Shown: positions 4,770 through 42,852 of the stretch, piece by piece
Layout of the letters: each line of letters opens with the position of its first letter
Numbering within the stretch: the first letter of the stretch is position 1
Assembly (NCBI GenBank): GCA_963402885.1
Contig: OY727102.1
Span: 2,046,001-2,110,000, forward strand
Direction of reading: 5' to 3'
Source of the DNA: Antedon bifida
Taxonomy: Eukaryota; Echinodermata; Crinoidea; Comatulida; Antedonidae
DNA length: 64,000 nt
The notes under the pieces: model-generated
Seen by the model: the letters and a program-made list of their open reading frames with translations, nothing else
Told to the model about the DNA's origin: nothing
Database searches by the model: none
Made by a program: the position numbers and the translations under genes

Positions 4770-5288
4770 GATTCTATTTTTAGATTGAACGTAAAATCCA
4801 ATACTAGCAACATCCGTTGTATGTACTGACTCTACTTGAATACAACGTAACGTTTTCATCGGTCGTCTACATTTAAAAGGTAAGAAAGCTGTCATGGACA
4901 ATGAAATTACTTAGAAATATATATACCATGACTATTATAGGCGTTGTTTAGGTCACTTAGGCCATGATCATCTGTATTTAGGAGTATCCCGTCCTACCAT
5001 GCATGCCCACGATTTTAGCGTAGGCCTACTAAACTCGTGGTGACGTAGCTAAGTAGCCGATATTTATAGATATTGGTCACGGGTTTGACTGATGTTTCTG
5101 GATGTTAACAATCTGAAACCGTCAGTAAGTGTATGACTAATTAATTCTTCTTAAACTAATTTAGGCCTACTAAAAAGTTGAAACTAATTTCTATTCTATA
5201 AAGCAGACCATAATAACATAAAGAAGAAGAAAAATATGTCATAATTGTCTTATAAATATTTCAACATTTTTATATATAAAGGTCAACC
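4770..5288 (+). promoter_or_regulatory. 5' region and probable noncoding first exon of the block A IAP gene
   Basis: A strong donor (AAAAG then GTAAG) at 4880-4881 and an AG at 5280-5281 just before GTCAACC-ATG fit a 400-base 5' UTR intron. The other three genes of the block show the same arrangement. Confidence 0.45.
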
Positions 5289-6956
5289 ATGCATACAGCA
5301 CTTCCCGAGGATGATCTGGAGACAGACTCAGTTGTGGACAATTATATAGGCGACCTAGACGGTGAAATCACACTTACCCAATCATACCATCACTATGATA
5401 GAAACAACTCATTGCTGCATCTCTTAAAACAACATAAATATACAGGTATCAACGCTAATTTAAATACTACACCAAAGAAAGAGTTCAACAAAAGATGGGG
5501 TGCCAGTACCGTACAAGAGGAAGGCTTCACAGAGCGAGAATTGGATATGACAAATTCGGAAAATCGGCTTTCTACATTTAAGTCCTTGCATAAAGGTTGT
5601 ACTCTTGATGTTTCCATTTTACAGCTGGCAAAAGAAGGGATATTTTATAAAGAAAACATGTTTTCATGTTCGTTTTGTAAGTATACTATTTACGCAAACA
5701 GATATCCTAATGTTTCAGAGTTACATAAAATGGAATCTCCAAATTGTTACTACGTCAAACAGTATCCAAGAAATCCATCAATATCACACCAGTCTGAAGT
5801 AGTCGCTTCTGTTGGTTCAAGCACCCCACGTGACCACGAATTGCCAACTTCTAGAAGCGAATTTCAATCATCCGTTTTAAATCTGGATTTGGAAAGAAAT
5901 ATATGTTCGCCTCAATCCGCAAAAGTCATGGAAAAAAGTTCAAGTTTCGATTGGATGTCTGAACTTGCAGTTGGTCAACATGTTCCTATCCGTGTCAGGC
6001 CTATGTCTTATAAAACTGTAGAAGACGATCTCTCTCTATTTGAAAACAGATTGAGAACCTTTCGTAAATGGCCATATACAAAACCAGACAAGAAGTCAGT
6101 TGCGAGTGCAGGATTCGTCTATAAAGGTGTTGGTGGTAACGTAAAATGTTTTTATTGTGACTTGGCTCTTTTACTGAATCCAAATGACGACCCTTTCATT
6201 GAACATGCTAGACTGCTGTCATCATGTAGATGGTTTGAAGAAATGAAAGGAGATCATTTCATCATTGAGTGCAAAACAAGATGTTATATTAATCAAGGTG
6301 AGACAGAATGTGGAATACGAGATTATATGACAAATGGCAACTCACAACATCTACCGGAAACAACATTTGAAGAAACACCTAGAGGAAGGAGAAAGGACCA
6401 AAAAACCGTATCTAAAATCTCGGGAAGTTTGAATCCATCTGCAGATTCGGAAAAATTGAAACTGGATGCTAATGCAAAATCTAAAATTAAACTTGCACAA
6501 GAATTTGGTTTTAATGATGATACCATAATGGCGGTAGTAACAAAACACCTAAAATATAACAATGGTGTTTTTTCTTTGTCAAACGAAGATATGATTGAAA
6601 AAGTTATGGATGAAGATGCTGCTAATCAAGAGATTAAGCCGGATGCACGTACTGAGATGGAATATCTGATACCAGACCTAACAAACCTTACGTTAAATGA
6701 CACAACAACTGAAAGTCTTACATCTGATACACTGAAGGCGTCCAATGAGGCATCGCAATCTAAAGATGATGTTGCCAAGGAACTAGAGGATCTCAAGGAC
6801 CAGCACGCGTGTAAAATATGCTTGGACCAATCGGCTAACATACTATTCAGGCCCTGTAATCACCTAGTTACCTGCATTGAATGTTCAAAGAACATCAACA
6901 TATGTCCAGTTTGCCGAGCAGCAATTGAAGACCGGATTAAAATTTATCAAAGTTAA
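5289..6956 (+). CDS. IAP family E3 ubiquitin ligase, BIR-BIR-UBA-RING, block A
   Basis: The 555-residue protein has a divergent BIR at about 92-156 (Cys127, Cys130, His146, Cys153, with only 15 residues between second Cys and His), a second BIR at about 250-318 (Cys287, Cys290, His306, Cys313), a UBA-like helical segment at about 396-440, and a C-terminal C3HC4 RING at about 506-545 with the signature CPVCR. That order matches cIAP/XIAP-type proteins, which bind caspases or signalling adaptors through BIRs, bind ubiquitin through UBA and transfer ubiquitin with the RING. BIR2 lacks the usual Trp and has a one-residue shorter zinc loop, so peptide-groove binding may be altered. The coding region is a single exon. 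It heads a row of three genes that share its first BIR. Block B at 17676 is nearly identical, with scattered substitutions and small in-frame indels. Confidence 0.92.
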   Translation: MHTALPEDDLETDSVVDNYIGDLDGEITLTQSYHHYDRNNSLLHLLKQHKYTGINANLNTTPKKEFNKRWGASTVQEEGFTERELDMTNSENRLSTFKSLHKGCTLDVSILQLAKEGIFYKENMFSCSFCKYTIYANRYPNVSELHKMESPNCYYVKQYPRNPSISHQSEVVASVGSSTPRDHELPTSRSEFQSSVLNLDLERNICSPQSAKVMEKSSSFDWMSELAVGQHVPIRVRPMSYKTVEDDLSLFENRLRTFRKWPYTKPDKKSVASAGFVYKGVGGNVKCFYCDLALLLNPNDDPFIEHARLLSSCRWFEEMKGDHFIIECKTRCYINQGETECGIRDYMTNGNSQHLPETTFEETPRGRRKDQKTVSKISGSLNPSADSEKLKLDANAKSKIKLAQEFGFNDDTIMAVVTKHLKYNNGVFSLSNEDMIEKVMDEDAANQEIKPDARTEMEYLIPDLTNLTLNDTTTESLTSDTLKASNEASQSKDDVAKELEDLKDQHACKICLDQSANILFRPCNHLVTCIECSKNINICPVCRAAIEDRIKIYQS

Positions 6957-7172
6957 AATACTTACTACTTACTCAGACGTACTGATTTTATGTGAATTGA
7001 CATCAATTATCCAGACATGATCAATGTCTGGCAAGCAAATGCCATTAACTGTATTAAACAACAATGCTTAGGAGTACCATTTATCATACAATATTTCAGA
7101 AAATATAAATAATAATACGATATCCCTGATAATACGAATATAAAGACGTCAAATTATGAAATTAAAAGTTAA

Positions 7173-7535
7173 GATGTATTGTCCCCCAAAAACATGAAAA
7201 ATGAAGATTAAATAAATCAGGTTTTTTTGTAGTGTTAATAAGATTATTTACTTTCCTAGGAAAAAAACTATAAAAACAATGTTTTTATAGTTATAAAATA
7301 ACATAATAAATGGTTAATTTCAACCATAAATCCTTTGTCAGACAGCTAATTTTACTATTTTTGGCTTTAAATTAGAGTTTTAGAAAATAAATAAAATAGA
7401 AATAAAGAGTTTTTTCAGGTAAATCAATTTTTGTTAGATCCAATTTTTATTAGATCCAATGAATATGTTAAATTAAAATGGTATATTCACCCAAAAAATA
7501 TTTAAGAATTATTTTTTCAGGGGGACAATATGTCT
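7173..7535. mobile_element. TTAA-flanked MITE, block A copy
   Basis: The stretch is bounded by TTAA at 7169-7172 and 7536-7539 and has inverted ends (GATGTATTGTCCC on the left, GGGGACAATATGTC on the right). Block B has the same element at 19570-20085 with about 150 bases more in the middle. TTAA target duplication is typical of piggyBac-type elements. No transposase is present. Confidence 0.6.
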
Positions 7536-7655
7536 TTAAGTAGTTTTTTTTTTTATATTTAATAATATAACAATCCATTTCATTATACGAAAATACCTTA
7601 GATGAACCATCCCATGTAGGTTATTTTTAGTTTATCAAAATTAAGTTACTACATG

Positions 7656-7784
7656 CTTTGTTTGTTTCTTTATTTCTATTCACAAAAACATAAACATATA
7701 TAAATAATCATTACAAACAAAACAAAAGAATGGAAAGGGGGGAATCTCTGAAGCACAGCTTATAATAGTAGAAACCCCCTGCTG
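7656..7784 (-). repeat. Insertion found only in block A, resembling a LINE 3' tail
   Basis: Block B (around 20190) lacks about 125 bases present here. Read on the minus strand the insert ends in an A-rich tail with AATAAAGAAAC-type repeats, as at the 3' end of non-LTR retrotransposons. It was therefore gained after the duplication, or lost from block B. Confidence 0.4.
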
Positions 7785-8369
7785 AAAGTTCATTCGAAAA
7801 AAAAATACATATTTAAACAGAATACTTAGGCCTACGTTGCATTTTCTATAGTGCTTTTTTTCATCTCTTTATATCTAGAAAACCACCGGCGTGCAAAATG
7901 GTGTCAACGATCGGCATTCACCGAGATGCACGCAATTTGGTGATGCCAATACAGTACTACATTATTATGTATTTTAATATAATATAATAATAGCATATGC
8001 TATTTTATAAACACATTTTCTGTACCATATAATTTATTAATATGTCACCTCTGTATTAATGATCATAATAGAGTGTTATGGTAACCGTTTCATAAATATA
8101 GATATAATATTACTTGATATCAATCATGGCTTGCTTCTCGTTATTTGTCAGTTTAGTTTTATACAATATTACTTGATATGTATTTGTAAGATTGTCTTAC
8201 TTTCGTATGCCTTTGTTAAAATAAACTTGGCGGAAAGACATGACATCAACAGGGCCTTGCAAGAGTTGGAAGATATCGGTAGGTGGAGAAGATAACCACT
8301 TGTGGTGGAATGAGACCGTCCTGAATTTTTACACTAACTAAACTGGGAGAATGCACCCATGTTTATCCT

Positions 8370-8905
8370 ACAGGCCTAGTTGTGGAAAACACAAGCCTCA
8401 CGTGATCAGTCATAGCGCTGCAAATAATAGAAAATCGAGGCAAACGTCACATTTGCTAAAATAACATAGGTGAGCCAATTGGAAAAACGATTTATTGATC
8501 ACGACTATAGAGGGTAGGCCTACAGTAATTACAACATCACAATAACCTACATTACAGATTAGGACGACTTGGGTGAGTATACTATTATTACTGTACTAGG
8601 CTACCGTAATTGTCTATGCATTCCTTCCCCCACTTATGTCGATATGGATTATTATTCTTTGGGCTACTCGTAAAATGTAGCGATTTTTCAAAGTTGTATG
8701 TTTGTGATATTTAGTGTGGCAAATTACTGCGCATCAACATGAACAAACGTTGATGTAGATTTTCTATTTAATTATAGGTGAGAAGCGAAAGCTATTATTG
8801 TCAGTTGATTCATTCTTCTGTATACAGAGAAGTACAGTGTAATCTCGTATAGCAACATATTATTTGATTTGTATAAGGGTGTATGTTTCGCTATAGGACT
8901 ACAAA
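8370..8905 (+). promoter_or_regulatory. Promoter and noncoding first exon of the repeat gene, block A
   Basis: A donor at 8573-8574 (ACTTGG then GTGAGT) and an acceptor at 8895-8896 (CGCTATAG), nine bases before the ATG, define a 5' UTR intron. The exon contains CACAATAACCTACATTACA, found with one base change in front of the third gene (12169 onward). Upstream ACGATTTATTGATCA also has a near copy there. The stretch is almost identical to 20810-21335. Confidence 0.55.
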
Positions 8906-11584
8906 ATGGCTACAGGAGGACAAGACGAAGTGATTTCATCACAGGACCTAGAAGAAAACGGATTTAGTCAAATAAACAATAACTATCAGTGTTTGCATTG
9001 TAAGTTTACATTTACAGTTAATATTAATTTCTTAAGATCGTTGCATAGTTTCGAATCTCCAAAGTGTGATTTTATTTCAAAAAGAGAAAACAACACACAT
9101 GGAAACGAAAACAATCCTAAGACCTCTTGCCAAAAATCCGATGTTGTGACTGAAAAAGTCAGTAAAACACGTCCACCTACACCACCTCCAAAACCTCAAC
9201 ATATTGCCGACAAATTCAAATCCAGGATGGAAACAAGGTGTGAAGATTCCAGCCAACACTCGAGGAAGCATCCAGTAATGCAGACAACATCTGACTCAAA
9301 ATCGAATCCAGTATTGCAGACAAGATGCAACACAAATGGAAATGAACACAATCCTAAAACAGCTGACTCAAAGTCGAATGTTGCGATTGAAAAATACAGT
9401 AAAGCAGATGCCATGAAAGTAAAAAGAACACGTCCACCTACACCACCTCCAAAACCTCAACATATTATCGACAAATTCCAATCCAGTGTAAGGATGGAAA
9501 CAAGGCGTGCAGATTCCAGCCAACACTCGAGGAAGCATCCAGTAATGCAGACAACATCTGACTCAAAATCGAATCCAGTATTGCAGACAAGATGCAACAC
9601 AAATGGAAATGAACACAATCCTAAAACAGCTGACTCAAAGTCGAATGTTGCGATTGAAAAATACAGTAAAGCAGATGCCATGAAAGTAAAAAGAACACGT
9701 CCACCTACACCACCTCCAAAACCTCAACATATTATCGACAAATTCCAATCCAGTGTAAGGATGGAAACAAGGCGTGCAGATTCCAGCGAACAATCAAGGA
9801 AGCATCCAGTAATGCAGACAACATCTGACTCAAAATCGAATCCAGTATTGCAGACAAGATGCAACACAAATGGAAATGAACACAATCCTAAAACAGCTGA
9901 CTCAAAGTCGAATGTTGCGATTGAAAAATACAGTAAAGCAGATGCCATGAAAGTAAAAAGAACACGTCCACCTACACCACCTCCAAAACCTCAACATATT
10001 ATCGACAAATTCCAATCCAATGTAAGGATGGAAACAAGGCGTGCAGATTACAGCGAACAATCAAGGAGGCATCCAGTAATGCAGACAACATCTGACTTAA
10101 AATCGAATCCAGTATTGCAGACAAGATGCAACACAAATGGAAATGAACACAATCCTAAAACACCTGACTCAAAGTCGAATGTTGCGATTGAAAAAGACAG
10201 TAAAGCAGATGCCATGAAAGTAAAAAGAACACGTCCACTTACACCACCTCCAAAACCTCAACATATTATCGACAAATTCCAATCCAGTGTAAGGATGGAA
10301 ACAAGGCGTGCAGATTCCAGCCAACACTCGAGGAAGCATCCAGTAATGCAGACAACATCTGACTCAAAATCGAATCCAGTATTGCAGACAAGATGCAACA
10401 CAAAAGGAAATGAACACAATCCTAAAACAGCTGACTCAAAGTCGAATGTTGCGATTGAAAAATACAGTAAAGCAGATGCCATGAAAGTAAAAAGAACACG
10501 TCCACCTACACCACCTCCAAAACCTCAACATATTATCGACAAATTCCAATCCAGTGTAAGGATGGAAACAAGGCGTGCAGATTCCAGCGAACAATTAAGG
10601 ACAACATCTGACTCAAAATCGAATCCAGTATTGCAGACAAGATGCAACACAAATGGAAATGAACACAATCCTAAAACAGCTGACTCAAAGTCGAATAGTG
10701 CGATTGAAAAAGACAGTAAAGCAGATGCCATGAAAATAAAAAGAACACGTCCACCTACACCACCTCCAAAACCTCAACATATTATCGACAAATTCCAATC
10801 CAGTGTAAGGATGGAAACAAGGCGTGCAGATTACAGCGAACAATCAAGGAAGCATCCAGTAATGCAGACAACATCTGACTTAAAATCGAATCCAGTATTG
10901 CAGACAAGATGCAACACAAATGGAAATGAACACAATCCTAAAACAGCTGACTCAAAGTCGAATGTTGCGATTGAAAAAGACAGTAAAACAGATGCCACGA
11001 AAATAAAAGGAACACGTCCACCGACACCACCTCCAAAACCTCCACATTTTCAAATACTAGAATCCGATATTACAACAACACGTCAAAATAAATCCGAATA
11101 TGAGCGACACTGTTATCTTCAAGTGAAGTTAAATAATACTAATTATAGTGTCGTAAACAAAAACATTGCACTTGATAAAAATAGTTATGTTAAAAGAAAG
11201 GTAGGCCTACAGCAGAATGCAGGGTATAGACATTCTAAACAAACAAGGCTTAAAATGGAAGTAAGGGTAAATGCCCTCTCACAACAATTAGGAAGAATGA
11301 CATTGGAACTGAACAAAAAAGACAAAATAATAGAAAATCTTCAAAATGATTTATTGAAGTTAAGACGATCGAGACGCCGTAACGTTAGAGGTAAGACTAG
11401 GGACACAAAAAACAAAGACAGACCAAGTAAATTACAAAGGAAACAAAGCGTGTTACAGCTCGCTGAGATTAGTAACAAGAAATCGAAGGCTGTAAGAAAA
11501 AAGAAGAAATACAGAGAAAAAGTTGCGTCTGATGAAGTTGATGTACTCAATGATGGGGAACTGTACTATGGATATCATGAATAA
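8906..11584 (+). CDS. BIR-like finger plus tandem SH3-type proline repeats plus coiled coil, block A
   Basis: The 892-residue protein begins with a short BIR-like zinc finger (Cys29, Cys32, His47, Cys54; 14 residues between second Cys and His) clearly related to that of its neighbours. Residues about 90-715 are seven tandem units of mostly 89 residues, each carrying RTRPPTPPPKPQ, which fits a class I SH3-binding motif (R-x-x-P-x-x-P). The units are rich in Ser, Thr, Asn and Lys and probably disordered. A basic region and a coiled coil near 790-825 follow, aligning with the start of the ORF1p-like part of the neighbouring genes (LQNDLLKL). The RNA-binding domain itself is degenerate and unrecognisable as a fold. 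No full BIR is present. One unit has lost six residues. I infer a multivalent scaffold; the function is unknown. Confidence 0.8.
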   Translation: MATGGQDEVISSQDLEENGFSQINNNYQCLHCKFTFTVNINFLRSLHSFESPKCDFISKRENNTHGNENNPKTSCQKSDVVTEKVSKTRPPTPPPKPQHIADKFKSRMETRCEDSSQHSRKHPVMQTTSDSKSNPVLQTRCNTNGNEHNPKTADSKSNVAIEKYSKADAMKVKRTRPPTPPPKPQHIIDKFQSSVRMETRRADSSQHSRKHPVMQTTSDSKSNPVLQTRCNTNGNEHNPKTADSKSNVAIEKYSKADAMKVKRTRPPTPPPKPQHIIDKFQSSVRMETRRADSSEQSRKHPVMQTTSDSKSNPVLQTRCNTNGNEHNPKTADSKSNVAIEKYSKADAMKVKRTRPPTPPPKPQHIIDKFQSNVRMETRRADYSEQSRRHPVMQTTSDLKSNPVLQTRCNTNGNEHNPKTPDSKSNVAIEKDSKADAMKVKRTRPLTPPPKPQHIIDKFQSSVRMETRRADSSQHSRKHPVMQTTSDSKSNPVLQTRCNTKGNEHNPKTADSKSNVAIEKYSKADAMKVKRTRPPTPPPKPQHIIDKFQSSVRMETRRADSSEQLRTTSDSKSNPVLQTRCNTNGNEHNPKTADSKSNSAIEKDSKADAMKIKRTRPPTPPPKPQHIIDKFQSSVRMETRRADYSEQSRKHPVMQTTSDLKSNPVLQTRCNTNGNEHNPKTADSKSNVAIEKDSKTDATKIKGTRPPTPPPKPPHFQILESDITTTRQNKSEYERHCYLQVKLNNTNYSVVNKNIALDKNSYVKRKVGLQQNAGYRHSKQTRLKMEVRVNALSQQLGRMTLELNKKDKIIENLQNDLLKLRRSRRRNVRGKTRDTKNKDRPSKLQRKQSVLQLAEISNKKSKAVRKKKKYREKVASDEVDVLNDGELYYGYHE
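9172..11043 (+). repeat. Coding minisatellite, 267-bp unit, block A
   Basis: The proline motif recurs at 9172, 9436, 9703, 9970, 10237, 10504, 10753 and 11020, a period of 267 bases with one 264-base and one 249-base unit. All periods are multiples of three, so the frame is kept. Block B has seven motifs, one fewer. Confidence 0.95.
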
Positions 11585-12060
11585 ACAAAACATCATGCTG
11601 CCTAACTCGGAAAAATCAGTATAACAATTCAAAGTAATGTACAATTCAATTAATAAAATAAACCGTACTGTCGGAATAACTATATTTTTACTAATACTAT
11701 TATTTTTAGTTTAGATTGTCAGACTCTGAAGCATTAGAAATGTAATGATAACAAAATCAGCCTAAAATAAATAACAAGTTGGTTTATTCAATTGTTAAAC
11801 AACAATTTAGATTTTTTAAGGGGTGGCGGGAATGATTAATTTAGCATAATTAGGTTTGATAACAATTAAATGAATCTTAACATTAACTATGAATGAAAAT
11901 GTTGGTGGTGGGGCACTATGTAAATGCAGAACAATCTTTTTCATGTTTTATGTACAGATCACTCCGAAAACAATAAAACATATTCCTGGTGTCACTGAGG
12001 GTTTCTGTTTTAATTTTATTTTATAATTATTATTACACAATAGTAGAATAATATAACATT
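11585..12060. other. 3' region of the repeat gene, block A
   Basis: AATAAA-type signals lie near 11654 and 11971. No further gene is seen. Confidence 0.5.
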
Positions 12061-12580
12061 GATATAAGCGTCATGTGATTATTCATAGCAAATCAGAGCG
12101 TCATAATCGATCACTTAGAACTAACAATAACGATTATTGATCAATATTCTGAAGGTTATTATTGCCACATCACAATAATCTACATTACATCACGGTGAGA
12201 GGTCCAACTTGGTAAGTAGGATTATTTTATTAATAATTCAGTTAATATTCATCACCCACCACCTATATATTGTTAATGAAAAATCATTCAACTTAAAAGG
12301 CGGCCTATGCTATACGTCCCGCTAGCTTGGGATTTCCAAAATCCGAACGCTTGGTGAAGTCTGGACATCTCTGTCGTTGCCAAATCAACGGTATCCAGAT
12401 GGAAACATCATGTAGATTTTTGATTGAAATTCTAGAATACATGCACCACTTGCCATTGGTCACCAACAAATTTGTCTAGCAACGGGTTACACTCAAATGG
12501 CGTAGGCCTATGTGGTTGTTTCACAGGACGTATACAAACTCATTTTCCACTTTTTTTTACAACTGTAGGCATTAATCAAT
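12061..12580 (+). promoter_or_regulatory. Promoter and noncoding first exon of the BIR-ORF1p gene, block A
   Basis: A donor at 12212-12213 (ACTTG then GTAAG) and an acceptor at 12567-12568 (ACTGTAG), twelve bases before the ATG, define a 5' UTR intron. CACAATAATCTACATTACAT at 12169 and ACGATTATTGATCA at 12129 repeat the layout in front of the second gene. Confidence 0.55.
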
Positions 12581-13957
12581 ATGGCAACATCGGCAGATCT
12601 AGGTAATGGGACAGTGATTTCACCACATGAACTGGCAAGAATTGGATGTAGTCTCGATCGCAGACACAATGAACTTCGATGTTTGCATTGTGATTTTACA
12701 GTCAAAAAAAGAAGTTTTCCAATTTATTTGAAGTTGCATAGGCACGGATCTCCAAACTGTGATTTCAATATTGGAAACAACACAATTGCAAATGAACAAC
12801 ATCCCAGCACCTCTGACCTAACATTCCATTCCAGTATCTTGCCTAAGGACGAGAAATGTGTAATACCGCGTATAAACATGGAATCTACAAGTGTACGACC
12901 TCACAAATATCCAGTAGGCCTAATTCAGACAACAGCTACATCTAATAATAACGAAGAATTAAGTATGAAAAGCACCAAAACAACAGCATTGGAATTGGAA
13001 ACAGAAGATGACCGGATGGTTAGTTTTTCCGGTTGGCCACACAGAAAACCAAACAAATGGGAAGTTTCAATGGCAGGATTCTCTTTCCTGGGTGTTGGTG
13101 ATAGGGTCAAATGTTTTTCATGCGGTTTTACAAAAGATTCATGGAAACCAGCTGATGATCCTTTTTATGAACATGCAAAAACTGGAGAGTGCTCATGGCT
13201 TATAGAAAATAAGGAAAGGAGTTTAATTACAACATGTCAACGAAAGTACCAATTAGAGCAGCAGCAGAATTGTCTTCAAAAAGATATTAATAAAAACACT
13301 AACAGTTTGGGTAACAAAATAAACATTTCTGAATTGATGACTGCTAACAAGCTGGATTACAAAGATAACATAAATGCGGTTAAAAGCAAGGTACAGAATA
13401 CTGAGTATGAACAGGCTAAACAAACTGATTCATCATTGCTTAAAATTGAGAAGAAAGTAGAGGCTCTTGCACCACGAATAGAAATCATGGAACTTGAATT
13501 AAAAGAAAAAGATAAAACAATAACAGATCTGCAAAACGATTTACTGAAGTACGAGAGACGATCAAGAAGTAGTAACTTGAGATTTGGAGGTGTAATCGAG
13601 GACAGAAACGAAAACACACTACATAAATTGCAAGGACTAATACAAAGTGTATTACACCTCGACGACATTGAAATTGAGAAGGCGCAGAGAGTTGGAAAAA
13701 AAGTATCTGGAAGTCCACGACACATTATTGCAACATTTAAGGATATACATCAGATGAATACCGTTTTCAGAAAATCAAAATCTTTAAGAAGCGGTAGGTT
13801 TCACGTAATGGAAGATTTGGCACCAACAGACATGAGGGAAAAGCAGAGATTAAAAGATGTTATGGATAAAGCATATGAGGCTGGATATCACCCTGAATTC
13901 CGCCGTGATGGTAAACTATACATTAATGGCAAACCATACGATCCTGAGAAATTATAG
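12581..13957 (+). CDS. BIR-L1 ORF1p fusion protein, block A
   Basis: The 458-residue protein has an N-terminal BIR-like finger (Cys34, Cys37, His53, Cys60), a full BIR at about 143-210 (Cys178, Cys181, His198, Cys204), a coiled coil at about 287-325, and a C-terminal region matching the LINE-1 ORF1p layout. That region has RRSRSSNLRFGGV where ORF1p has its first RRM strand, SPRHIIATF at the RNP1-like strand (human ORF1p has SPRHIII), and a C-terminal domain ending in DGKLYINGKPY. ORF1p is the trimeric RNA chaperone of L1 elements. The BIR is homologous to BIR2 of the IAP ligase upstream (shared GVG, VKCF and DDPF-EHA blocks). No endonuclease or reverse transcriptase frame follows, so this is not an ORF1 in its element. 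I infer a domesticated fusion. Block B differs at residues 9 and 95 only. Confidence 0.85.
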   Translation: MATSADLGNGTVISPHELARIGCSLDRRHNELRCLHCDFTVKKRSFPIYLKLHRHGSPNCDFNIGNNTIANEQHPSTSDLTFHSSILPKDEKCVIPRINMESTSVRPHKYPVGLIQTTATSNNNEELSMKSTKTTALELETEDDRMVSFSGWPHRKPNKWEVSMAGFSFLGVGDRVKCFSCGFTKDSWKPADDPFYEHAKTGECSWLIENKERSLITTCQRKYQLEQQQNCLQKDINKNTNSLGNKINISELMTANKLDYKDNINAVKSKVQNTEYEQAKQTDSSLLKIEKKVEALAPRIEIMELELKEKDKTITDLQNDLLKYERRSRSSNLRFGGVIEDRNENTLHKLQGLIQSVLHLDDIEIEKAQRVGKKVSGSPRHIIATFKDIHQMNTVFRKSKSLRSGRFHVMEDLAPTDMREKQRLKDVMDKAYEAGYHPEFRRDGKLYINGKPYDPEKL

Positions 13958-15300
13958 CCTGTCATAATTATACTGTTAATTATTATACTGTTAATTATTA
14001 TAGGCCCACTTAGTATACTAATAATTTAGATTTATTATGTGTAAGCATATCCTTTGTTTTTAATGTGAATATGTTTCTTTACAATTTGATTCTCTATTTG
14101 ACCGTGACTTTCTTTTAATTAAATGCATAATTCGTGTACCTTTTGGACAACTAGACGTAAAAAGATTAGGTTTAAATGTTAATACTTAAAATATTGTTGG
14201 TAAACTATTCGAACATAAACAAACCAGATGAATACTGTATCAAAGGAAACACAGTTTTAGGTAATGGAGGATTAAGGACTTGGCACCAGCAGTAGTTAGA
14301 TGAACGTAGAAGACACATATTAGGGAGCTTCGATTACAACTGGATGGTATTCGAATTGAGCATACGCATAGGGTTAGGTAGGCTGCATTATTTACATTTA
14401 TAACATTATATTATTTACAAACGGTCATTAATTGTGTAGTACCGGTGTGCTGGCGCCTTTTCTATGCATGATTAATACGTTTAAAATGTGTATGAAATCT
14501 ATATAGGCCTACATTATAAACTTAATCAAGTACGAATGAATGTAACGTTTCCGTCGTATTTATACTTTGTACACATGAGAAGCGTATGAACGGCATAACA
14601 GTGGTGGTACAAATATCTGATAATATAGATCCCCGTTTAGACCACTAACAAAACTAAAGGTTTCTATTCAAATAATCCTTTTGTTCAACAGTAGAAAATG
14701 TATTTGAAAAATGAACTCGCCATTCAACAATTCATTATTCAATCACCGGGTGGTTTTGTTGTCACGTGTTTAATTGTACCAAATGCACAGGATAGAATAT
14801 TAAAGGAAGACAATTTGGCGTAACATAGTGTAAATAATTGTCGCATTCTAATAACTGAATAAGCTACAGAATCTCAGAGATACAAATTGGTAAGTTTGTC
14901 ATATAATCATTATCAATAACTTTCTATGGATCCTATTACGTCCTCTATCGGGTGTTTTTCACTGAAAATCGATTATAACAAAAATACTATTTACTACAAG
15001 AACAGAAAAATGTTTCAATGTAAATTGGAATTTCCAAAATCCAGAGGCTTTATGACGTGTTGAGATAGAGAGCCCCTAAATTTCCAAAGTGCATGAGGCA
15101 TAATCGGAATTTTGCAAAACAACAGCATAAAAATAAAATATTGGAAGTAAATTTTGCATTTAATTCTAGGTGGGACAAATTGAACAAATTGCCAATCAAC
15201 CGTCCCGTACACATTCAGAATAGGCCTACAGTACTTGGGTTTGTTCTCATATTTGACAGTCAAGAAGAAAATACTTCCAGTTACATAAATCGGGTGAAGT
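13958..15300 (+). other. Spacer with promoter and noncoding first exon of the fourth gene, block A
   Basis: No coding gene is seen. A donor at 14890-14891 (AAATTG then GTAAG) and AG sites at 15257-15280 fit a 5' UTR intron like those of the other genes. A CACGTG box lies near 14763. The spacer is nearly identical to 26149-27491. Confidence 0.5.
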
Positions 15301-16719
15301 ATGGCAACATCCACAGGAACAGTGATTTCACAGCAGGAACTGGCAAAAAATGGATTTATTCAGAGAAACAACGAACTTCATTGTTTGTATTGCAATTTTA
15401 CAGTAAAAAGGGGAAAATTTTCAATTTATCGAATGTTGCATAAACACGAATCTCCAGACTGTGGTACACAAAGAGAGAACAACACATTGAGAAATGAACA
15501 AACAACAAACACCAAAACAGGTACAACGAAGGTGAAAAAAACAGGTCCACCTATACCTCCTAAACCACAAAGATACAAAAAGAATGTCCAAATTGACCAA
15601 TCCCATCTCTTGCCTACAAAGACCGACATCAGTGGAAGGCTGGAAAACAAAAGCGAACGACCTCACTCAAGAAATGTTAGGCCTACAATAAGAAATACAA
15701 ATCTTCCAATGTACTCAAAGCTGTATAGACATGAATCGTCTGATGAGAGTGGTAGGCCTATCATTTCAAACGCTAGAGCGAACACGCTTAGGCCTACTGA
15801 AAATGTACAAAAACCAAGCACATCCGATTCAAAATCAAATTCTGGGAAGAAAAAAGAAACCATGAATGTGAAACAAACAACTCCATGTCCGTCTGCTGTA
15901 CGTCCAAAACAACGCAAGAGAAACAAACAGAATGTTCAAATACTCCAATCACATCTCATCCCAAAGCAGCGTGTTATGCTGGAAAATACAAGCGAACGAC
16001 CTCACAAATATCCAGTTGTAGGCCTGAATCAGACAGCAGCTAAATCAAATAATAACGACGACTTCAGTAAAAACAACGCATCGTATGCACAGCGTGTACC
16101 TTCCAAATCATTGGAATTTGAAGATGACCGGATGAGGAGTTTTTCCCGTGGGCCACACAGAAAACCATGGCCTATAGAAAATAAGGGAAGGAGTTTCATT
16201 AAAAATGATGAGTTCCAATTGGAGCAGCAGCAGAGCTGTTTTCAAAAAGTGAAGTTAGATGATATTAACAAAAACAAAAATTGGGGCGAAAAAAGAAACA
16301 TTTCTGAATTGATGACTTCTAACAAGCTAGATTACAAAGATAACATAAATGCGGTTAAAAGCAAGGTACAGAATACCGAGTATGAACAGTCTAAACAACA
16401 AACCGACTGGCTTAAAATTGAGAAGAAAGTAGAAGATCTTTCACCACAAATAGAAGACATGGCACTTCAATTAAAAGAAAAAGACCAAGCAATAACAGAT
16501 CTGCAAAACGGTTTATTGAAGTTAGAGAGACGATCGAGACGTCATAACTTGAGATTTGGAGGTATAAGTGAGGACAAAAACGAAGACACACCAAGTAAAT
16601 TACAAGGTCTAATACGAAGGGAATTGCACCTCGATGGTATTAAAATTGAGGATGCGCATAGGGTTGGTAAAACGGTATCTGGAAGTCCACGACACATTAT
16701 TGCAACATTTAAGGATTGA
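15301..16719 (+). pseudogene. BIR-like/proline motif/ORF1p-like gene cut by the duplication junction, block A
   Basis: The frame runs 472 codons with the same start and domains as the complete gene at 27492: BIR-like finger (Cys28, Cys31, His47, Cys54), a single GPPIPPKP motif, a remnant of the second BIR, a coiled coil and the first two-thirds of the ORF1p-like RRM. At 16715, directly after the SPRHIIATFKD block, the sequence leaves the gene and enters the left end of the duplicated block, giving an immediate stop. The ORF1p-type C-terminal domain (about 66 residues) is missing. The product may still be made, but would lack half of the RNA-binding surface. Block A also has short indels relative to block B in the low-complexity middle. 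Confidence 0.85.
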
Positions 16720-17675
16720 ATTGTTCTATTTATAGTATAGTTAGGAAAAATGGTAAAAGGTTTCCTACTTTCTAGGATTTTTATCACATAATCTATATTG
16801 TTTTGACAACTCTTGTAACATGACCACAGTGCTGATTTTGCCATTTTTCCTCTATCAAAAAATGTAAAATGCATTGGCAGCCAAAAGCTGAATTGACAAT
16901 TAATTACAAATATCAAACGTCTAAATGACATCAAAAAGGTAAAATAGGCTAAAATATAAAAACATTGATCATAAACAATTCGGTTATTGCGTAATTTCAT
17001 TACTCGCTCATGGTCCCATTTCAGTACCATAACTGAACTGAAACTGTAAACATAGATCGATTGTTTTTTTGTTGTTTTATTTGTAAACAGAACACTAGAC
17101 GGCATTATGCTTTTCAAAAGATTCAACTGATTGTTATCGATTGGATGGTTCACTTGATTCTATTTTTAGATTGGACGTAAAATCCAATACTAGCAACATC
17201 CGTTGTATGTACTGACTCTACTTGAATACAACGTAACGTTTTCATCGGTCGTCTACATTTAAAAGGTAAGAAAGCTGTCATGGACAATGAAATTACTTAG
17301 AAATATATATACCATGACTATTATAGGCGTTGTTTAGGTCACTTAGGCCATGATCATCTGTATTTAGGAGTATCCCGTCCCACCATGCATGCCCACGATT
17401 TTAGCGTAGGCCTACTAAACTCGTGTTGACGTAGCTAAGTAGCCGATATTTATAGATATTGGTCACGGGTTTGACTGATGTTTCTGGATGTTAACAATCT
17501 GAAACCGTCAGTAAGTGTATGACTAATTAATTCTTCTTAAACTAATTTAGGCCTACTAAAAAGTTGAAACTAATTTCTATTCTATAAAGCAGACCATATA
17601 TAACATAAAGAAGAAGAACAATATGTCATAATTGTCTTATAAATATTTGAACATTTTTATATATAAAGGTCAACC
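16720..17675 (+). promoter_or_regulatory. 5' region of the block B IAP gene
   Basis: This is the copy of 4326-5288 with the same probable 5' UTR donor (AAAAG then GTAAG, near 17267) and the acceptor seven bases before the ATG. No gene is seen on the minus strand despite a long open frame across the junction. Confidence 0.45.
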
Positions 17676-19343
17676 ATGCATACAGCACTTCCCGAGGATG
17701 ATATGGAGACAGACTCAGTTGTGGACAATTATATACTAGGTGACCTAGACGGTGAAATCACACTTACCCAATCATACCTTCACTATGATATAACAAACAA
17801 CCCATTGCGGCATCTCTTAAAACAACATAAATATACAGGTATCAACGCTAATTTAAATACTACACCAAAGAAAGAGTTCAACAAAAGATGGGGTGCCAGT
17901 ACCGTACAAGAGGAAGGCTTCACAGAGCGAGAATTGGATATGACAAATTCGGAAAATCGGCTTTCTACATTTAAGTCCTTGCATAAAGGTTGTACTCTTG
18001 ATGTTTCCATTTTACAGCTGGCAAAAGAAGGGATATTTTATAAAGAAAACATGTTTTCATGTTCGTCTTGTAAGTATACTATTTACGCAAACAGATATCC
18101 TAATGTTTCAGAGTTACATAAAATGGAATCTCCAAATTGTTACTACGTCAAACAGTATCCAAGAAATCCATCAATATCACACCAGTCTGAAGTAGTCGCT
18201 TCTGTTGGTTCAAGCACCCCACGTGACCACGAATTGCCAACTTCTAGAAGCGAATTTCAATCATCCGTTTTAAATCTGGATTTGGAAAGAAATATATGTT
18301 CGCCTCAATCCGCAAAAGTCATGGAAAAAAGTTCAAGTTTCGATTGGATGTCTGAACTTGCAGTTGGTCAACATGTTCCTGTCCGTGTCAGGCCTATGTC
18401 TTATAAAACTGTAGAAGACGATCTCTCTCTATTTGAAAACAGATTGAGAACCTTTCGTAAATGGCCATATACAAAACCAGACAAGAAGTCAGTTGCGAGT
18501 GCAGGATTCGTCTATAAAGGTGTTGGTGGTAACGTAAAATGTTTTTATTGTGACTTGGCTCTTTTACTGAATCCAAATGACGACCCTTTCATTGAACACG
18601 CTAGACTGCTGTCATCATGTAGATGGTTTGAAGAAATGAAAGGAGATCATTTCATCATTGAGTGCAAAACAAGATGTTATATTAATCAAGGTGAGACAGA
18701 ATGTGGAATACGAGATTATATGACAAATGGCAACTCACAACATCTACCGGAAACAACATTTGAAGAAACACCTAGAGATGCAAAGGACCAAAAAACCGTA
18801 TCTAAAATCTCGGGAAGTTTGAATCCATCTGCAGATTCGGAAAAATTGAAACTGGATGCTAATGCAAAATCTAAAATTAAACTTGCACAAGAATTTGGTT
18901 TTAATGATGATACCATAATGGCGGTAGTAACAAAACACCTAAAAGATAACAATGGTGTTTTTTCTTTGTCAAACGAAGATATGATTGAAAAAGTTATGGA
19001 TGAAGATGCTGCTAATCAAGAGATTAAGCCGGATGCACGTACTGAGATGGAATATCTGATACCAGACCTAACAAACCTTACGTTAAATGATACAACAACT
19101 GAAAGTCTTACATCTGATACACTGACGTCCAATGAGGCATTGCAATCTAAAGATGATGTTGCCAAGGAACTAGAGGATCTCAAGGACCAGCACGCTTGTA
19201 AAATATGCTTGGACCAATCGGCTAACATACTATTCAGGCCCTGTAATCACCTAGTTACCTGCATTGAATGTTCAAAGAACATCAACATATGTCCAGTTTG
19301 CCGAGCAGCAATTGAAGACCGGATTAAAATTTATCAAAGTTAA
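17676..19343 (+). CDS. IAP family E3 ubiquitin ligase, BIR-BIR-UBA-RING, block B
   Basis: This is the second copy of the gene at 5289, also 555 residues because small in-frame indels cancel. All zinc ligands of both BIRs and of the RING are kept, as is the UBA-like segment. Differences from block A include CSSC instead of CSFC at the first BIR, one extra residue near 21, one residue fewer near 366, and two residues missing before the RING near 485. Preservation of frame in spite of indels argues that both copies are under selection or very young. The 3' spacer diverges much more than the coding region. Confidence 0.92.
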   Translation: MHTALPEDDMETDSVVDNYILGDLDGEITLTQSYLHYDITNNPLRHLLKQHKYTGINANLNTTPKKEFNKRWGASTVQEEGFTERELDMTNSENRLSTFKSLHKGCTLDVSILQLAKEGIFYKENMFSCSSCKYTIYANRYPNVSELHKMESPNCYYVKQYPRNPSISHQSEVVASVGSSTPRDHELPTSRSEFQSSVLNLDLERNICSPQSAKVMEKSSSFDWMSELAVGQHVPVRVRPMSYKTVEDDLSLFENRLRTFRKWPYTKPDKKSVASAGFVYKGVGGNVKCFYCDLALLLNPNDDPFIEHARLLSSCRWFEEMKGDHFIIECKTRCYINQGETECGIRDYMTNGNSQHLPETTFEETPRDAKDQKTVSKISGSLNPSADSEKLKLDANAKSKIKLAQEFGFNDDTIMAVVTKHLKDNNGVFSLSNEDMIEKVMDEDAANQEIKPDARTEMEYLIPDLTNLTLNDTTTESLTSDTLTSNEALQSKDDVAKELEDLKDQHACKICLDQSANILFRPCNHLVTCIECSKNINICPVCRAAIEDRIKIYQS

Positions 19344-20809
19344 AATACTTACTACTTACTAATACGTACTGATTTTATGTGAATTGACATCAATTATCCA
19401 GACATGATCAATGTCTGGCAAGCAAATTCCATTAACTGTATTAACAAATAATACTTAGGAGTACCATTTATCATACAATATTTCAGAAAATATACATAAT
19501 AATACGATATCCCTGACAATACGAATACAATACAAAGACGAAAAATTATGAAATTAAAGGTTACATTAAAGATGTATTGTCCCTTGAAACACAAAAAATG
19601 AAGGTCAAAATATTTAAATTGGCCATATCAAAGTAATATTAAAGTTATTCACTTTAAGTCGAAAATTCGAGCCAAAAACAACAAGTTTACGTGAATAACA
19701 GGTAAATTAATTTGATTACATTTCGTCTGGAAATCGTCGCGAGCGAAAGTAAACAAAGATTTCAAACCACGAGTATGCATTATGCATAATGCTAATTAGG
19801 ATTGTTTACTTGAACTCGTCTCGTCAGATCGCGAGGAAGTTTTATGATTATGAATACAAAGTGTTTTCACTTATAAAATAACACAATAAATGGTTAATTT
19901 CAACCACAATTCCTTTGGCTGGAAGCTAATTTTACTATTTTTTGTTTTAAATTGCAGTGTTTTCATGTATTCAATTTTTGTTCGATCCAATTTTTGGTCA
20001 AAGTGGATAACTAATATGTGACATTAAAATGGCATATTCAGCAACAAATATTTACGAATTATTTTTCCAGAGGGAAAATACATCTTTAAGTAGTTTTTGT
20101 TATATTTAATAATTATAATAATCCATCTCATTATACGAAACTACATTAGATGAGCCATGTAGGTGATTTTTAGTGTATTATGAAGTGACTGCATGCTGAA
20201 AGTTCATGTGAAAAAAAAGATACATATTTAAACAGAATACGGTACAGGATAGTACAGTACTTAACGACTTAGGCCTACGTTGCATTTTCTAGTGTGTTTT
20301 TCATGTATCTAGAAAACCACCGGCGTGCAAAATGGTGTCGACGATCGGCATTCACCGAGATGCACGCAATTTGGTGATGCCAATTACATATGTATTTTAA
20401 TAATTAATAGGCATATGCTATTTTACAAACACATTTTCTGTACCATATACTTTATATTAATATGTGTACTGTGTATTAATGATCATAATAGAGTATTATG
20501 GTAACCGTTTAATAAATATACATATAATATCACTTGATATCAATCATGGTTTGCCTCTCGTTATTTGGAGTCAGTTTTATACTATTACTTAATATGTACC
20601 GTATTTGTAAGATCGTCACTATTCTCACATTCGTATGCCTAAATTAAATTAAATAAAACACCGGTATGCCAACAATATAACCTAACCAGGGCATCGCATC
20701 ATCAGGGCCTAGCAAGGGTGGGAAGATAACCACTTGTGGTGGAATGAGACCGTCTCCTGAAAGTGTACCTCAATTGGAGAAGGCATCCATGTATATCCTA
20801 CAGGCCTAG
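19344..20809. other. Spacer after the IAP gene, block B; divergent between blocks
   Basis: No gene is supported. It aligns with 6957-8369 only patchily: about one base in ten differs near the gene, and there are large indels around the MITE. Confidence 0.6.
19570..20085. mobile_element. TTAA-flanked MITE, block B copy
   Basis: TTAA lies at 19566-19569 and 20086-20089, with inverted ends GATGTATTGTCCC and GGGAAAATACATC. It is 516 bases long against 363 in block A; the extra middle part contains an inverted pair around GCATTATGCATAATGC. It is probably the fuller form of the family. Confidence 0.6.
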
Positions 20810-21335
20810 TTGTGGAAAACACAAGCCTCACGTGATCAGTCATAGCGCTGCAAATAATAGAAAATCGAGGCAAACATCACATTTGCTAAAATAACATAGG
20901 TGAGCCAATTGGAAAAACGATTTATTGATCACGACTATAGAGGGTAGGCCTACAGTAATTACAACATCACAATAACCTACATTACAGATTAGGACGACTT
21001 GGGTGAGTATACTATTATTACTGTACTAGGCTACCGTAATTGTCTATGCATTCCTTCCCCCACTTATGTCGATATGGATTATTATTCTTTGGGCTACTCG
21101 TAAAATGTAGCGATTTTTCAAAGTTGTATGTTTGTGATATTTAGTGTGGCAAATTACTGCGCATCAACATGAACAAACGTTGATGTAGATTTTCTATTTA
21201 ATTATAGGTGAGAAGCGAAAGCTATTATTGTCAGTTGATTCATTCTTCTGTATACAGAGAAGTACAGTGTAATCTCGTATAGCAACATATTATTTGATTT
21301 GTATAAGGGTGTATGTTTCGCTATAGGACTACAAA
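20810..21335 (+). promoter_or_regulatory. Promoter and noncoding first exon of the repeat gene, block B
   Basis: The stretch is nearly identical to 8380-8905, with the same donor (near 21003) and the same acceptor nine bases before the ATG. Confidence 0.55.
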
Positions 21336-23639
21336 ATGGCTACAGGAGGACAAGACGAAGTGATTTCATCACAGGACCTAGAAGAAAACGGATTTAGTCA
21401 AATAAACAATAACTATCAGTGTTTGCATTGTAAGTTTACATTTACAGTTAATATTAATTTCTTAAGATCGTTGCATAGTTTCGAATCTCCAAAGTGTGAT
21501 TTTATTTCAAAAAGAGAAAACAACACACATGGAAACGAAAACAATCCTAAGACCTCTTGCCAAAAATCCGATGTTGTGACTGAAAAAGTCAGTAAAACAC
21601 GTCCACCTACACCACCTCCAAAACCTCAACATATTGCCGACAAATTCAAATCCAGGATGGAAACAAGGTGTGAAGATTCCAGCCAACACTCGAGGAAGCA
21701 TCCAGTAATGCAGACAACATCTGACTCAAAATCGAATCCAGTATTGCAGACAAGATGCAACACAAATGGAAATGAACACAATCCTAAAACAGCTGACTCA
21801 AAGTCGAATGTTGCGATTGAAAAATACAGTAAAGCAGATGCCATGAAAGTAAAAAGAACACGTCCACCTACACCACCTCCAAAACCTCAACATATTATCG
21901 ACAAATTCCAATCCAGTGTAAGGATGGAAACAAGGCGTGCAGATTCCAGCGAACAATCAAGGAAGCATCCAGTAATGCAGACAACATCTGACTCAAAATC
22001 GAATCCAGTATTGCAGACAAGATGCAACACAAATGGAAATGAACACAATCCTAAAACAGCTGACTCAAAACCGAATGTTGCGATTGAAAAAGACAGTAAA
22101 ACAGATGCCACGAAAATTAAAGGAACACGTCCACCGACACCACCTCCAAAACCTCAACATATTATCGACAAATTCCAATCCAGTGTAAGGATGGAAACAA
22201 GGCGTGCAGATTCCAGCGAACAATCAAGGAGGCATCCAGTAATGCAGACAACATCTGACTCAAAATCGAATCCAGTATTGCAGACAAGATGCAACACAAA
22301 TGGAAATGAACACAATCCTAAAACAGCTGACTCAAAGTCGAATGTTGCGATTGAAAAAGACAGTAAAGCAGATGCCATGAAAGTAAAAAGAACACGTCCA
22401 CCTACACCACCTCCAAAACCTCAACATATTATCGACAAATTCCAATCCAGTGTAAGGATGGAAACAAGGCGTGCAGATTCCAGCCAACACTCGAGGAAGC
22501 ATCCAGTAATGCAGACAACATCTGACTCAAAATCGAATCCAGTATTGCAGACAAGATGCAACACAAAAGGAAATGAACACAATCCTAAAACAGCTGACTC
22601 AAAGTCGAATGTTGCGATTGAAAAATACAGTAAAGCAGATGCCATGAAAGTAAAAAGAACACGTTCACCTACACCACCTCCAAAACCTCAACATATTATC
22701 GACAAATTCCAATCCAGTGTAAGAATGGAAACAAGGCGTGCAGATTTCAGCGAACAATTAAGGAAGCATCCAGTAATGCAGACAACATCTGACTCAAAAT
22801 CGAATCCAGTATTGCAGACAAGATGCAACACAAATGGAAATGAACACAATCCTAAAACAGCTGACTCAAAGTCGAATATTGCGATTGAAAAAGACAGTAA
22901 AGCAGATGCCATGAAAATAAAAAGAACACGTCCACCTACACCACCTCCAAAACCTCAACATATTATCGACAAATTCCAATCCAGTGTAAGGATGGAAACA
23001 AGGCGTGCAGATTCCAGCGAACAATCAAGGAAGCATCCAGTAATGCAGACAACATCTGACTTAAAATCGAATCCAGTATTGCAGACAAGATGCAACACAA
23101 ATGGAAATGAACACAATCCTAAAACAGCTGACTCAAAGTCGAATGTTGCGATTGAAAAAGACAGTAAAACAGATGCCACGAAAATAAAAGGAACACGTCC
23201 ACCGACACCACCTCCAAAACCTCCACATTTTCAAATACTAGAATCCGATATTACAACAACACGTCAAAATAAATCCGAATATGAGCGATACTGTTATCTT
23301 CAAGTGAAGTTAAATAATACTAATTATAGTGTCGTAAACAAAAACATTGCACTTGATAAAAATAGTTATGTTAAAAGAAAGGTAGGCCTACAGCAGAATG
23401 CAGGGTATAGACATTCTAAACAAACAAGGCTTAAAATGGAAGTAAGGGTAAATGCTCTCTCACAACAATTAGGAAGAATGACATTGGAACTGAACAAAAA
23501 AGACAAAATAATAGAAAATCTTCAAAATGATTTATTGAAGTTAAGACGATCGAGACGCCGTAACGTTAGAGGTAAGACTAGGGACACAAAAAACAAAGAC
23601 AGACATACAAAGAAAACAAAGCGTGTTACAGCTCGCTGA
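21336..23639 (+). CDS. BIR-like finger plus tandem SH3-type proline repeats, block B, shortened C-terminus
   Basis: This is the counterpart of the gene at 8906. It keeps the N-terminal finger and has six tandem units (seven proline motifs), one fewer than block A. Near 23603 an 8-base deletion relative to block A shifts the frame, so the protein ends after 767 codons with KDRHTKKTKRVTAR; the region that in block A encodes the last 49 residues is still present downstream, out of frame. Block A aligns better with the fourth gene there (PSKLQ), so block A is ancestral at this site. The coiled-coil start is retained. Whether the shorter form works is unknown. Confidence 0.78.
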   Translation: MATGGQDEVISSQDLEENGFSQINNNYQCLHCKFTFTVNINFLRSLHSFESPKCDFISKRENNTHGNENNPKTSCQKSDVVTEKVSKTRPPTPPPKPQHIADKFKSRMETRCEDSSQHSRKHPVMQTTSDSKSNPVLQTRCNTNGNEHNPKTADSKSNVAIEKYSKADAMKVKRTRPPTPPPKPQHIIDKFQSSVRMETRRADSSEQSRKHPVMQTTSDSKSNPVLQTRCNTNGNEHNPKTADSKPNVAIEKDSKTDATKIKGTRPPTPPPKPQHIIDKFQSSVRMETRRADSSEQSRRHPVMQTTSDSKSNPVLQTRCNTNGNEHNPKTADSKSNVAIEKDSKADAMKVKRTRPPTPPPKPQHIIDKFQSSVRMETRRADSSQHSRKHPVMQTTSDSKSNPVLQTRCNTKGNEHNPKTADSKSNVAIEKYSKADAMKVKRTRSPTPPPKPQHIIDKFQSSVRMETRRADFSEQLRKHPVMQTTSDSKSNPVLQTRCNTNGNEHNPKTADSKSNIAIEKDSKADAMKIKRTRPPTPPPKPQHIIDKFQSSVRMETRRADSSEQSRKHPVMQTTSDLKSNPVLQTRCNTNGNEHNPKTADSKSNVAIEKDSKTDATKIKGTRPPTPPPKPPHFQILESDITTTRQNKSEYERYCYLQVKLNNTNYSVVNKNIALDKNSYVKRKVGLQQNAGYRHSKQTRLKMEVRVNALSQQLGRMTLELNKKDKIIENLQNDLLKLRRSRRRNVRGKTRDTKNKDRHTKKTKRVTAR
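21602..23224 (+). repeat. Coding minisatellite, 267-bp unit, block B
   Basis: Proline motifs lie at 21602, 21866, 22133, 22400, 22667, 22934 and 23201. Units are all 267 bases after the first (264). Variants such as SSQHS and SSEQS are distributed differently from block A, which indicates unit gain, loss or conversion since the duplication. Confidence 0.95.
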
Positions 23640-24771
23640 GATTAGTAACAAGAAATCGAAGGCTGTAAGAAAAAAGAAGAAATACAGAAGAAAAGTTGTT
23701 ATGGCAAAAACAAATGCGTCTGATGAAGTTGATGTACTCAATGATGGGGAACTGTACTATGGATATCATGAATAAACAAAACATCATGCTGCCTAACTCG
23801 GAAAAACCAGTATAACAATTCAAAGTAATGTACAATTCAATTAATAAAATAAACCGTACTGTCGGAATAACTATATTTTTACTAATACTATTATTTTTAG
23901 TTTAGATTGTCAGACTCTGAAGCATTAGAAATGTAATGATAACAAAATCAGCCTAAAATAAATAACAAGTTGGGTTATTCAATTGTTAAACAACAATTTA
24001 GATTTTTTAAGGGGTGGCGGGAATGATTAATTTAGCATAATTAGGTTTGATAACAATTAAATGAATCTTAACATTAATTATGAATGAAAATGTTGGTGGT
24101 GGGGCACTATGTAAATGCAGAACAATCTTTTTCATGTTTTATGTACAGATCACTCCGAAAACAATAAAACATATTCCTGGTGTCACTGAGGGTTTCTGTT
24201 TTAATTTTATTCTATTATTATTATTACACAATAGTAGAATAATATAACATTGATATAATCGTCATGTGATTATTCATAGCAAATCAGAGCGTCATAATCG
24301 ATCACTTAGAACTAACAATAACGATTATTGATCAATATTCTGAAGGTTATTATTGCCACATCACAATAATCTACATTACATCACGGTGAGAGGTCCAACT
24401 TGGTAAGTAGGATTATTTTATTAATAATTCAGTTAATATTCATAACCCACCACCTATATATTGTTAATGAAAAATCATTCAACTTAAAAGGCGGCCTATG
24501 CTATACGTCCCGCTAGCTTGGGATTTCCAAAATCCGAACGCTTGGTGAAGTCTGGACATCTCTGTCGTTGCCAAATCAACGGTATCCAGATGGAAACATC
24601 ATGTAGATTTTTGATTGAAATTCTAGAATACATGCACCACTTGCCATTGGTCACCAACAAATTTGTCTAGCAACGGGTTACACTCAAATGGCGTAGGCCT
24701 ATGTGGTTGTTTCACAGGACGTATACAAACTCATTTTCCACTTTTTTTTACAACTGTAGGCATTAATCAAT
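23640..24771 (+). promoter_or_regulatory. 3' region of the repeat gene, then promoter and noncoding first exon of the BIR-ORF1p gene, block B
   Basis: The start holds the out-of-frame remnant of the repeat gene C-terminus (to about 23775). The shared first-exon motif CACAATAATCTACATTACAT recurs near 24362, with a donor near 24403 and an acceptor before the ATG at 24772. Confidence 0.5.

Positions 24772-42821: not shown

Positions 42822-42852
<31 letters not shown>

Follow-up and report, generated by a model that had tools for sequence, protein, structure and literature searches.

What is an open reading frame that begins as an IAP and ends as the ORF1 protein (ORF1p) of a LINE, and does it belong to the host or to a retroelement? 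The question is raised by a gene in the crinoid Antedon bifida, lying in a 64,000-nucleotide stretch of contig OY727102.1 that was analysed as a whole (hereafter the window). A sequence-only reading had proposed that one frame joins a BIR-like half finger, a complete BIR, a coiled coil and an RRM with a C-terminal domain (CTD), and all of these modules are present at 12581-13957:

12581..13957, + strand: BIR-ORF1p fusion gene copy a (BOa), 458 aa, ATG start, with BIR and ORF1p matches
12680..12760, + strand: BIR-like half finger (BOa residues 34-60), CX2CX15HX6C, to which the fingers of the IAP, repeat-protein and finger-ORF1p paralogues are homologous
13013..13198, + strand: BIR domain (BOa residues 145-206), CX2CX16HX5C, PF00653 at E 2.5e-17, XIAP BIR3 (3hl5) at E 1.2e-14
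13430..13954, + strand: coiled coil, RRM and CTD of LINE ORF1p type II, identified with a LINE-only profile

The BIR had been placed at residues 140-212, and the match to the Pfam model falls within that interval with a score of 63.6 bits, against a cut-off of 22.9. The corresponding E-values in the two copies of the gene, BOa and BOb, are 2.5e-17 and 2e-17, and the C-C-H-C ligand pattern is retained in BOa. The half finger has the same CX2CX15HX6C spacing in BOa, in the neighbouring IAP and in the finger-ORF1p gene, while that of the repeat-protein gene has X14. Many IAPs, but not all, carry a RING E3 domain; a Pfam scan found a RING in the neighbouring IAP and none in BOa. When the BOa BIR was aligned with that of XIAP, Trp188 and Asp192 fell opposite Trp310 and Glu314, and Thr201 fell opposite Trp323, these XIAP residues having roles in the groove. 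The zinc spacing of the BOa BIR is HX5C instead of HX6C. Together with the replacement of the groove Trp by Thr, this spacing makes canonical peptide binding uncertain, and judging from these residues the BIR of BOa may have lost it.

Single-sequence scans against Pfam did not place the C-terminal half. The whole BOa protein had no Transposase_22 match at E<=1, and its C-terminal 208 aa had no match to ORF1p families at E<=10, while a single-sequence search of the PDB with the C-terminal part ranked LINE-1 ORF1p (2ykp) first, weakly, at E 0.022. As a control, the same Pfam model was applied to four LINE ORF1s of the same genome, none of which passed the Transposase_22 cut-off, with two sub-threshold matches (E 0.0075 and 0.075). 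A profile was then made from 11 LINE ORF1 modules of this genome, with no window sequence included (the LINE-only profile). Run against 351 window frames, it picked out four genes, two copies each of BIR-ORF1p and finger-ORF1p (E 7.8e-50, 7.8e-50, 2.2e-48 and 1.3e-27), the next frame standing at 0.064. In BOa (E 7.8e-50) the match spans residues 296-454, with the RRM and CTD starting from about residue 325, and none of 1000 shuffles of the module reached E<=0.001. With a joint profile of 13 rows (11 LINE, 2 window), human LINE-1 ORF1p 2ykp was matched at E 3.2e-15; the match covers profile positions 2-143 of 169 and leaves out the extreme C-terminal end. These two profile results bear out the earlier suggestion of an ORF1p-like C-terminus; the profile check proposed with it gave a negative answer with Transposase_22 of Pfam and a positive one with the LINE-only profile.

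Other properties of the module agree with those of LINE ORF1s. A tree was built from 22 modules, 2 from the window and 20 from LINEs. Rooted by our choice on L027, it groups the window pair of BIR-ORF1p and finger-ORF1p with the LINE ORF1s L011 and L012 at an ultrafast bootstrap of 93; deeper branches are weakly supported, several of them below 60. The basic character is kept, with a module pI of 9.73 and 9.59 in the window genes and 9.72-10.28 in the 20 LINE ORF1s, although the window genes are somewhat less basic in net charge (+7 and +8, versus +8 to +14), and in BIR-ORF1p other residues stand in place of the RPQR segment found in most LINE ORF1s. The coil of BOa is rich in heptads, its hydrophobic a/d fraction of 0.9 over the best 35 aa being matched by 0 of 500 shuffles; in the same test, the coil of the finger-ORF1p sister was matched by 4 of 500. 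An AlphaFold 2 model from four window sequences was poor (mean pLDDT 52.6, below 50 in the RRM region), and the fold of the RRM and CTD therefore rests on homology; the coil helix of that model reached a block pLDDT of 72-80 over 30 residues. A protein-database search with residues 235-458 gave none of 1268 candidates at E<=0.001, a result that is uninformative about other species, and 75 pattern matches in viral contigs, obtained with patterns drawn from the stretch before the RRM, included no relatives.

Where do the two parts meet? Copy a of the neighbouring IAP is homologous to BOa residues 22-242 (E 4e-21, 27% identity), and the LINE ORF1 L016 is homologous to residues 217-453 (E 4e-38). 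Since the two homologies overlap in a weakly alignable stretch, the joint between IAP and ORF1 probably lies near residues 220-256. It is very probable that BOa originated from an IAP fragment (half-BIR finger and BIR) and a LINE ORF1 (coil, RRM and CTD) that took the place of the IAP RING half. The sequence-only reading had called this ORF1 domesticated. The part of that proposal concerning origin stands, given the LINE ORF1 C-terminus, the IAP-homologous N-terminus and the RING at the corresponding place in the neighbouring IAP; domestication is a separate step and depends on the locus.

BOa lies within a cluster of four gene types, all of which share the finger, and the cluster has been duplicated in tandem as a 12.4-kb unit. 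Its order is IAP (5289-6956), repeat protein (8906-11584), BIR-ORF1p (12581-13957) and finger-ORF1p (15301-16719):

4323..16715, + strand: tandem unit, first copy
16711..28897, + strand: tandem unit, second copy
5289..6956, + strand: IAP paralogue copy a, 555 aa, with finger, BIR (E 4.2e-20) and RING (zf-C3HC4_3, E 8.7e-13)
17676..19343, + strand: IAP paralogue copy b
8906..11584, + strand: repeat-protein paralogue copy a, with finger, eight TPPPKP motifs, coil and decayed ORF1p start
21336..23639, + strand: repeat-protein paralogue copy b, with seven TPPPKP motifs
24772..26148, + strand: BIR-ORF1p fusion gene copy b (BOb), near-identical to BOa
15301..16719, + strand: finger-ORF1p copy a (FOa), no BIR core, RRM interrupted by the duplication junction with loss of the CTD
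27492..29108, + strand: finger-ORF1p copy b (FOb), 538 aa, whole ORF1p module but no BIR core

The two units are 97.5% identical between 4323-7212 and 16711-19609 and 97.4% identical between 9328-16715 and 21521-28897; the intervening blocks are less alike (92.8% for 7780-10783, 74% for 7269-7657). BOa and BOb differ at 3 nucleotides over 458 codons (1 synonymous, 2 replacement). The finger-ORF1p protein has no counterpart of BOa residues 158-205, the BIR core being cleanly missing with the frame intact, and FOa has no CTD because the duplication junction at about 16711-16715 cuts its RRM. Neither BOb nor these BIR-less sisters, FOa and FOb, figured in the earlier reading. The decayed ORF1p start of the repeat protein falls below significance with the LINE-only profile, and its proline-rich TPPPKP motifs, mostly 89 aa apart, differ in number between the tandem copies. 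Just upstream of the cluster, at 2455-3033, is a separate BIR frame (192 aa, BIR E 9e-23), perhaps one exon of another IAP.

To ask how ORF1-like sequences are arranged elsewhere, we searched the window's own genome (315.6 Mb), which yielded at least 90 matching rows. As read from the table, 90 rows comprise 12 in the window, 5 BIR rows outside it and 73 outside rows for the ORF1p-like part, the latter with up to 48% identity to the window module. Regions of 9.4-9.9 kb were retrieved for 20 of the 73, a sample that is not random, since it is mostly high-ranking and includes several near-identical copies of one family. All 20 retrieved ORF1-like loci have ORF2 (endonuclease/reverse transcriptase) sequence downstream on the same strand, detected in 18 by a reverse transcriptase (RT) motif in a frame of >=120 codons and, for L011 and L012, in tblastn searches with ORF2 proteins; Pfam identified RVT_1 and Exo_endo_phos in all four LINE ORF2s scanned. 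One of the genome's LINE ORF2s (L022:3170-6427, - strand) starts with a cysteine-rich stretch that by eye is PHD-like, a kind of start described for some L2-lineage LINEs in a passage of PMC4120745.

The sequence-only reading had named, as the case that would tell against it, a full LINE always attached to this ORF1. In the window, nine ORF2 protein queries found nothing at E<=1e-3. Their best matches, at E 0.015 and above, are scraps of a short RT relic on the - strand near 55236-55334, at a distance of 41 kb from BOa; the relic carries a YADDTNMFY motif (best E 0.015). The genome contains at least 19 BIR matches, at least 14 of them outside the window, and each of the 14 listed outside matches lies about 30 kb or more from any listed ORF1p match. 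In addition, a query made of the BOa finger and BIR found nothing at E<=1 in L011-L030; its matches were confined to the BIR loci L031-L036, one of which (L032) is the BIR gene at 2455 in the window itself.

Upstream of BOa lie two further probable features of the gene:

12167..12211, + strand: probable untranslated first exon, its end inferred from the donor at 12212, its left limit undefined
12212..12568, + strand: probable 5'-UTR intron, with a GTAAGT donor and a pyrimidine-rich AG acceptor read by eye

Within this exon, the 23 nt at 12167-12189 recur with a single mismatch ahead of the repeat-protein gene (22 of 23 positions, E 1e-6). By an approximate score the donor at 12212 comes 39th among the window's 3384 GT sites, and a GT 17 nt upstream of it scores more strongly, which makes the evidence suggestive rather than conclusive. 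On these signals BOa probably has an untranslated first exon.

We then compared BIR-ORF1p with its sister FOb. Across the RRM and CTD, dN is 0.207 and dS 0.418, giving a dN/dS of 0.50 (0.31-0.80, 200 bootstraps), and everything after the BIR gives 0.54 (0.36-0.83); for the coil and post-BIR segments taken alone, the bootstrap intervals extend above 1. The RRM comparison with FOa, over 63 codons, gives 0.49 (0.23-1.17). For each of the four genes, comparison of its two recent tandem copies gives a value within 0.51-0.80, from few changes. The linker was left out of the argument because its value shifts with the alignment (0.60, 0.63 and 0.91 in three pairings). A dN/dS near 0.5 is relaxed constraint. 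LINE ORF1 lineages themselves evolve under constraint, and dN/dS alone therefore cannot separate a host gene from an element; selection by itself being insufficient for domestication, it is the evidence from the locus that carries that step.

In light of these data, three other accounts of the gene have to be weighed. A family of non-LTR retrotransposons could have acquired a BIR in its ORF1, in which case BIR-ORF1p would be this ORF1 and the copies would be element remnants. The BOa module is a near-complete ORF1, and the ORF1s of CR1/L2-lineage LINEs differ in the domains they carry, PHD and esterase among them, as described in part of PMC4120745. However, the window is devoid of any ORF2 trace at E<=1e-3, the listed BIR and ORF1p matches outside it keep their distance of about 30 kb or more, L011-L030 hold nothing like the finger and BIR at E<=1, the copies multiply as a 12.4-kb tandem unit together with IAP genes, and a 5' exon and intron appear to be present. 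A BIR-carrying LINE was accordingly rejected on the lack of ORF2 matches in the window, the separation of the listed BIR and ORF1p matches elsewhere, the tandem unit and the apparent 5' exon, and we regard it as highly improbable.

A LINE might instead have inserted into an IAP duplicate by chance, leaving a functionless fusion whose frame has yet to decay. FOa is indeed truncated by now, no more of ORF1p is left in the repeat-protein genes than a decayed start, and the ratios of 0.51-0.80 between recent copies could be taken in the same sense. Yet BIR-ORF1p and FOb stand at a dS of about 0.35-0.42 with both frames open, while no similarity at E<=0.01 is seen between their 1-kb 3' flanks, which are unalignable. 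In neutral simulations at this depth, with substitutions only, a mean of 11.5 stops accumulated and none of 2000 runs kept both frames open; the bootstrap interval for the RRM and CTD also stays below 1. A chance fusion thus seems quite unlikely. The remaining account would have the ORF1p module under selection, as an RNA chaperone or as a LINE inhibitor that poisons trimers, with the BIR as a passenger. It draws on the retention of ORF1p in finger-ORF1p, from which the BIR core is cleanly absent in frame, and on the departures of the BIR-ORF1p groove and zinc spacing from XIAP; against it, both BIR-ORF1p copies retain a BIR that Pfam recognizes at the E-values given above, with C-C-H-C ligands. 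We consider this account rather unlikely.

Taken together, the best reading is that a domesticated LINE ORF1 was fused to an IAP fragment. Host-gene status is supported by the cluster context, the lack of ORF2, the likely 5' exon, constraint, and duplication in tandem rather than by retroposition; BOa occupies a fixed locus, has no ORF2, and has a frame kept by selection, as is asked of a domesticated ORF1. The reading in full, a host gene made of the N-terminal part of a duplicated IAP and a near-whole type II LINE ORF1, with a mechanism included, appears reasonably probable.

The nearest known system is L1TD1, which to our knowledge carries no BIR. It is mammalian and L1-derived, whereas the source of BIR-ORF1p was a LINE with a type II ORF1 and its partner an IAP. 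Like BIR-ORF1p, it is a host gene with a coiled coil, RRM and CTD from LINE ORF1p (described in parts of PMC11925450 and PMC4161310), and sections of PMC11925450 report that it has two CTD copies, that it associates with ORF1p independently of RNA, that L1TD1/ORF1p heteromultimers on L1 RNA are proposed, and that the effect seen there is promotion of retrotransposition, with no restriction. Part of PMC4120745 reports type II ORF1s (CC, RRM, CTD) from four clades, L1, CR1, L2 and R1, and proposes that LINE ORF1s undergo domain shuffling. The BOa module resembles these ORF1s in sequence, order and basic character but differs in standing behind a BIR, in a host gene cluster, with no downstream ORF2. 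Compared with the IAP/BIRC proteins (XIAP, NAIP, cIAP, oyster BIRC9-12), BOa shares a BIR with C-C-H-C ligands and adjoins an IAP with BIR and RING, but has ORF1p in place of the RING half, Thr in place of the groove Trp, and HX5C spacing. Some bivalve IAP genes carry retroposition domains inside translated ORFs, according to a section of PMC8917759 in which no BIR-ORF1p fusion protein is described. Nor was such a fusion found in the literature searched by title and start of abstract, which covered few subscription papers.

The mechanism that could follow, taken as a whole, is tentative. The coil of BOa would form homotrimers, perhaps also mixed trimers with the sister gene product or with LINE ORF1p, and the RRM and CTD would bind RNA. 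The resulting particle would display BIR modules and so might bring BIR-binding partners to RNA or to LINE RNPs, with the ORF1p-only sister (finger-ORF1p) as a possible partner or BIR-less counterpart. As L1TD1 associates with ORF1p, BIR-ORF1p may by analogy enter LINE particles, either restricting or helping LINEs, although we hold this to be doubtful. More speculatively in scope, BIR-ORF1p and its BIR-less sister might co-assemble with the genome's LINE ORF1p, coat LINE RNA and put BIRs on the particle, so that the load of retroelements would be coupled through the neighbouring RING IAP to cell-death or ubiquitin signalling, a possibility that we raise with reserve. The most likely role would be that of a retroelement-tuned immune or restriction factor.

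If this is correct, the family is an independently arisen counterpart of L1TD1. With LINE ORF1p captured a second time independently, here fused to a cell-death/immunity domain beside an IAP, it would be clear that host proteins can reuse non-LTR ORF1p, and a direct molecular connection of retroelement RNPs with IAP signalling would be suggested. The natural BIR-minus sister gene offers a ready-made comparison.

Outside the cluster, the window holds a probable multi-exon DEAH helicase gene on the - strand at about 39000-50175 (extent judged by eye from open frames), of which the fragment 44149-44559 matched DHX36 structures at E 4e-50. A frame with an integrase core (rve) lies at 53404-54012 on the + strand (PF00665, E 1.6e-7, just below the cut-off) and probably comes from an LTR or similar element, and a 64-bp tandem repeat array occupies 61215-62678.
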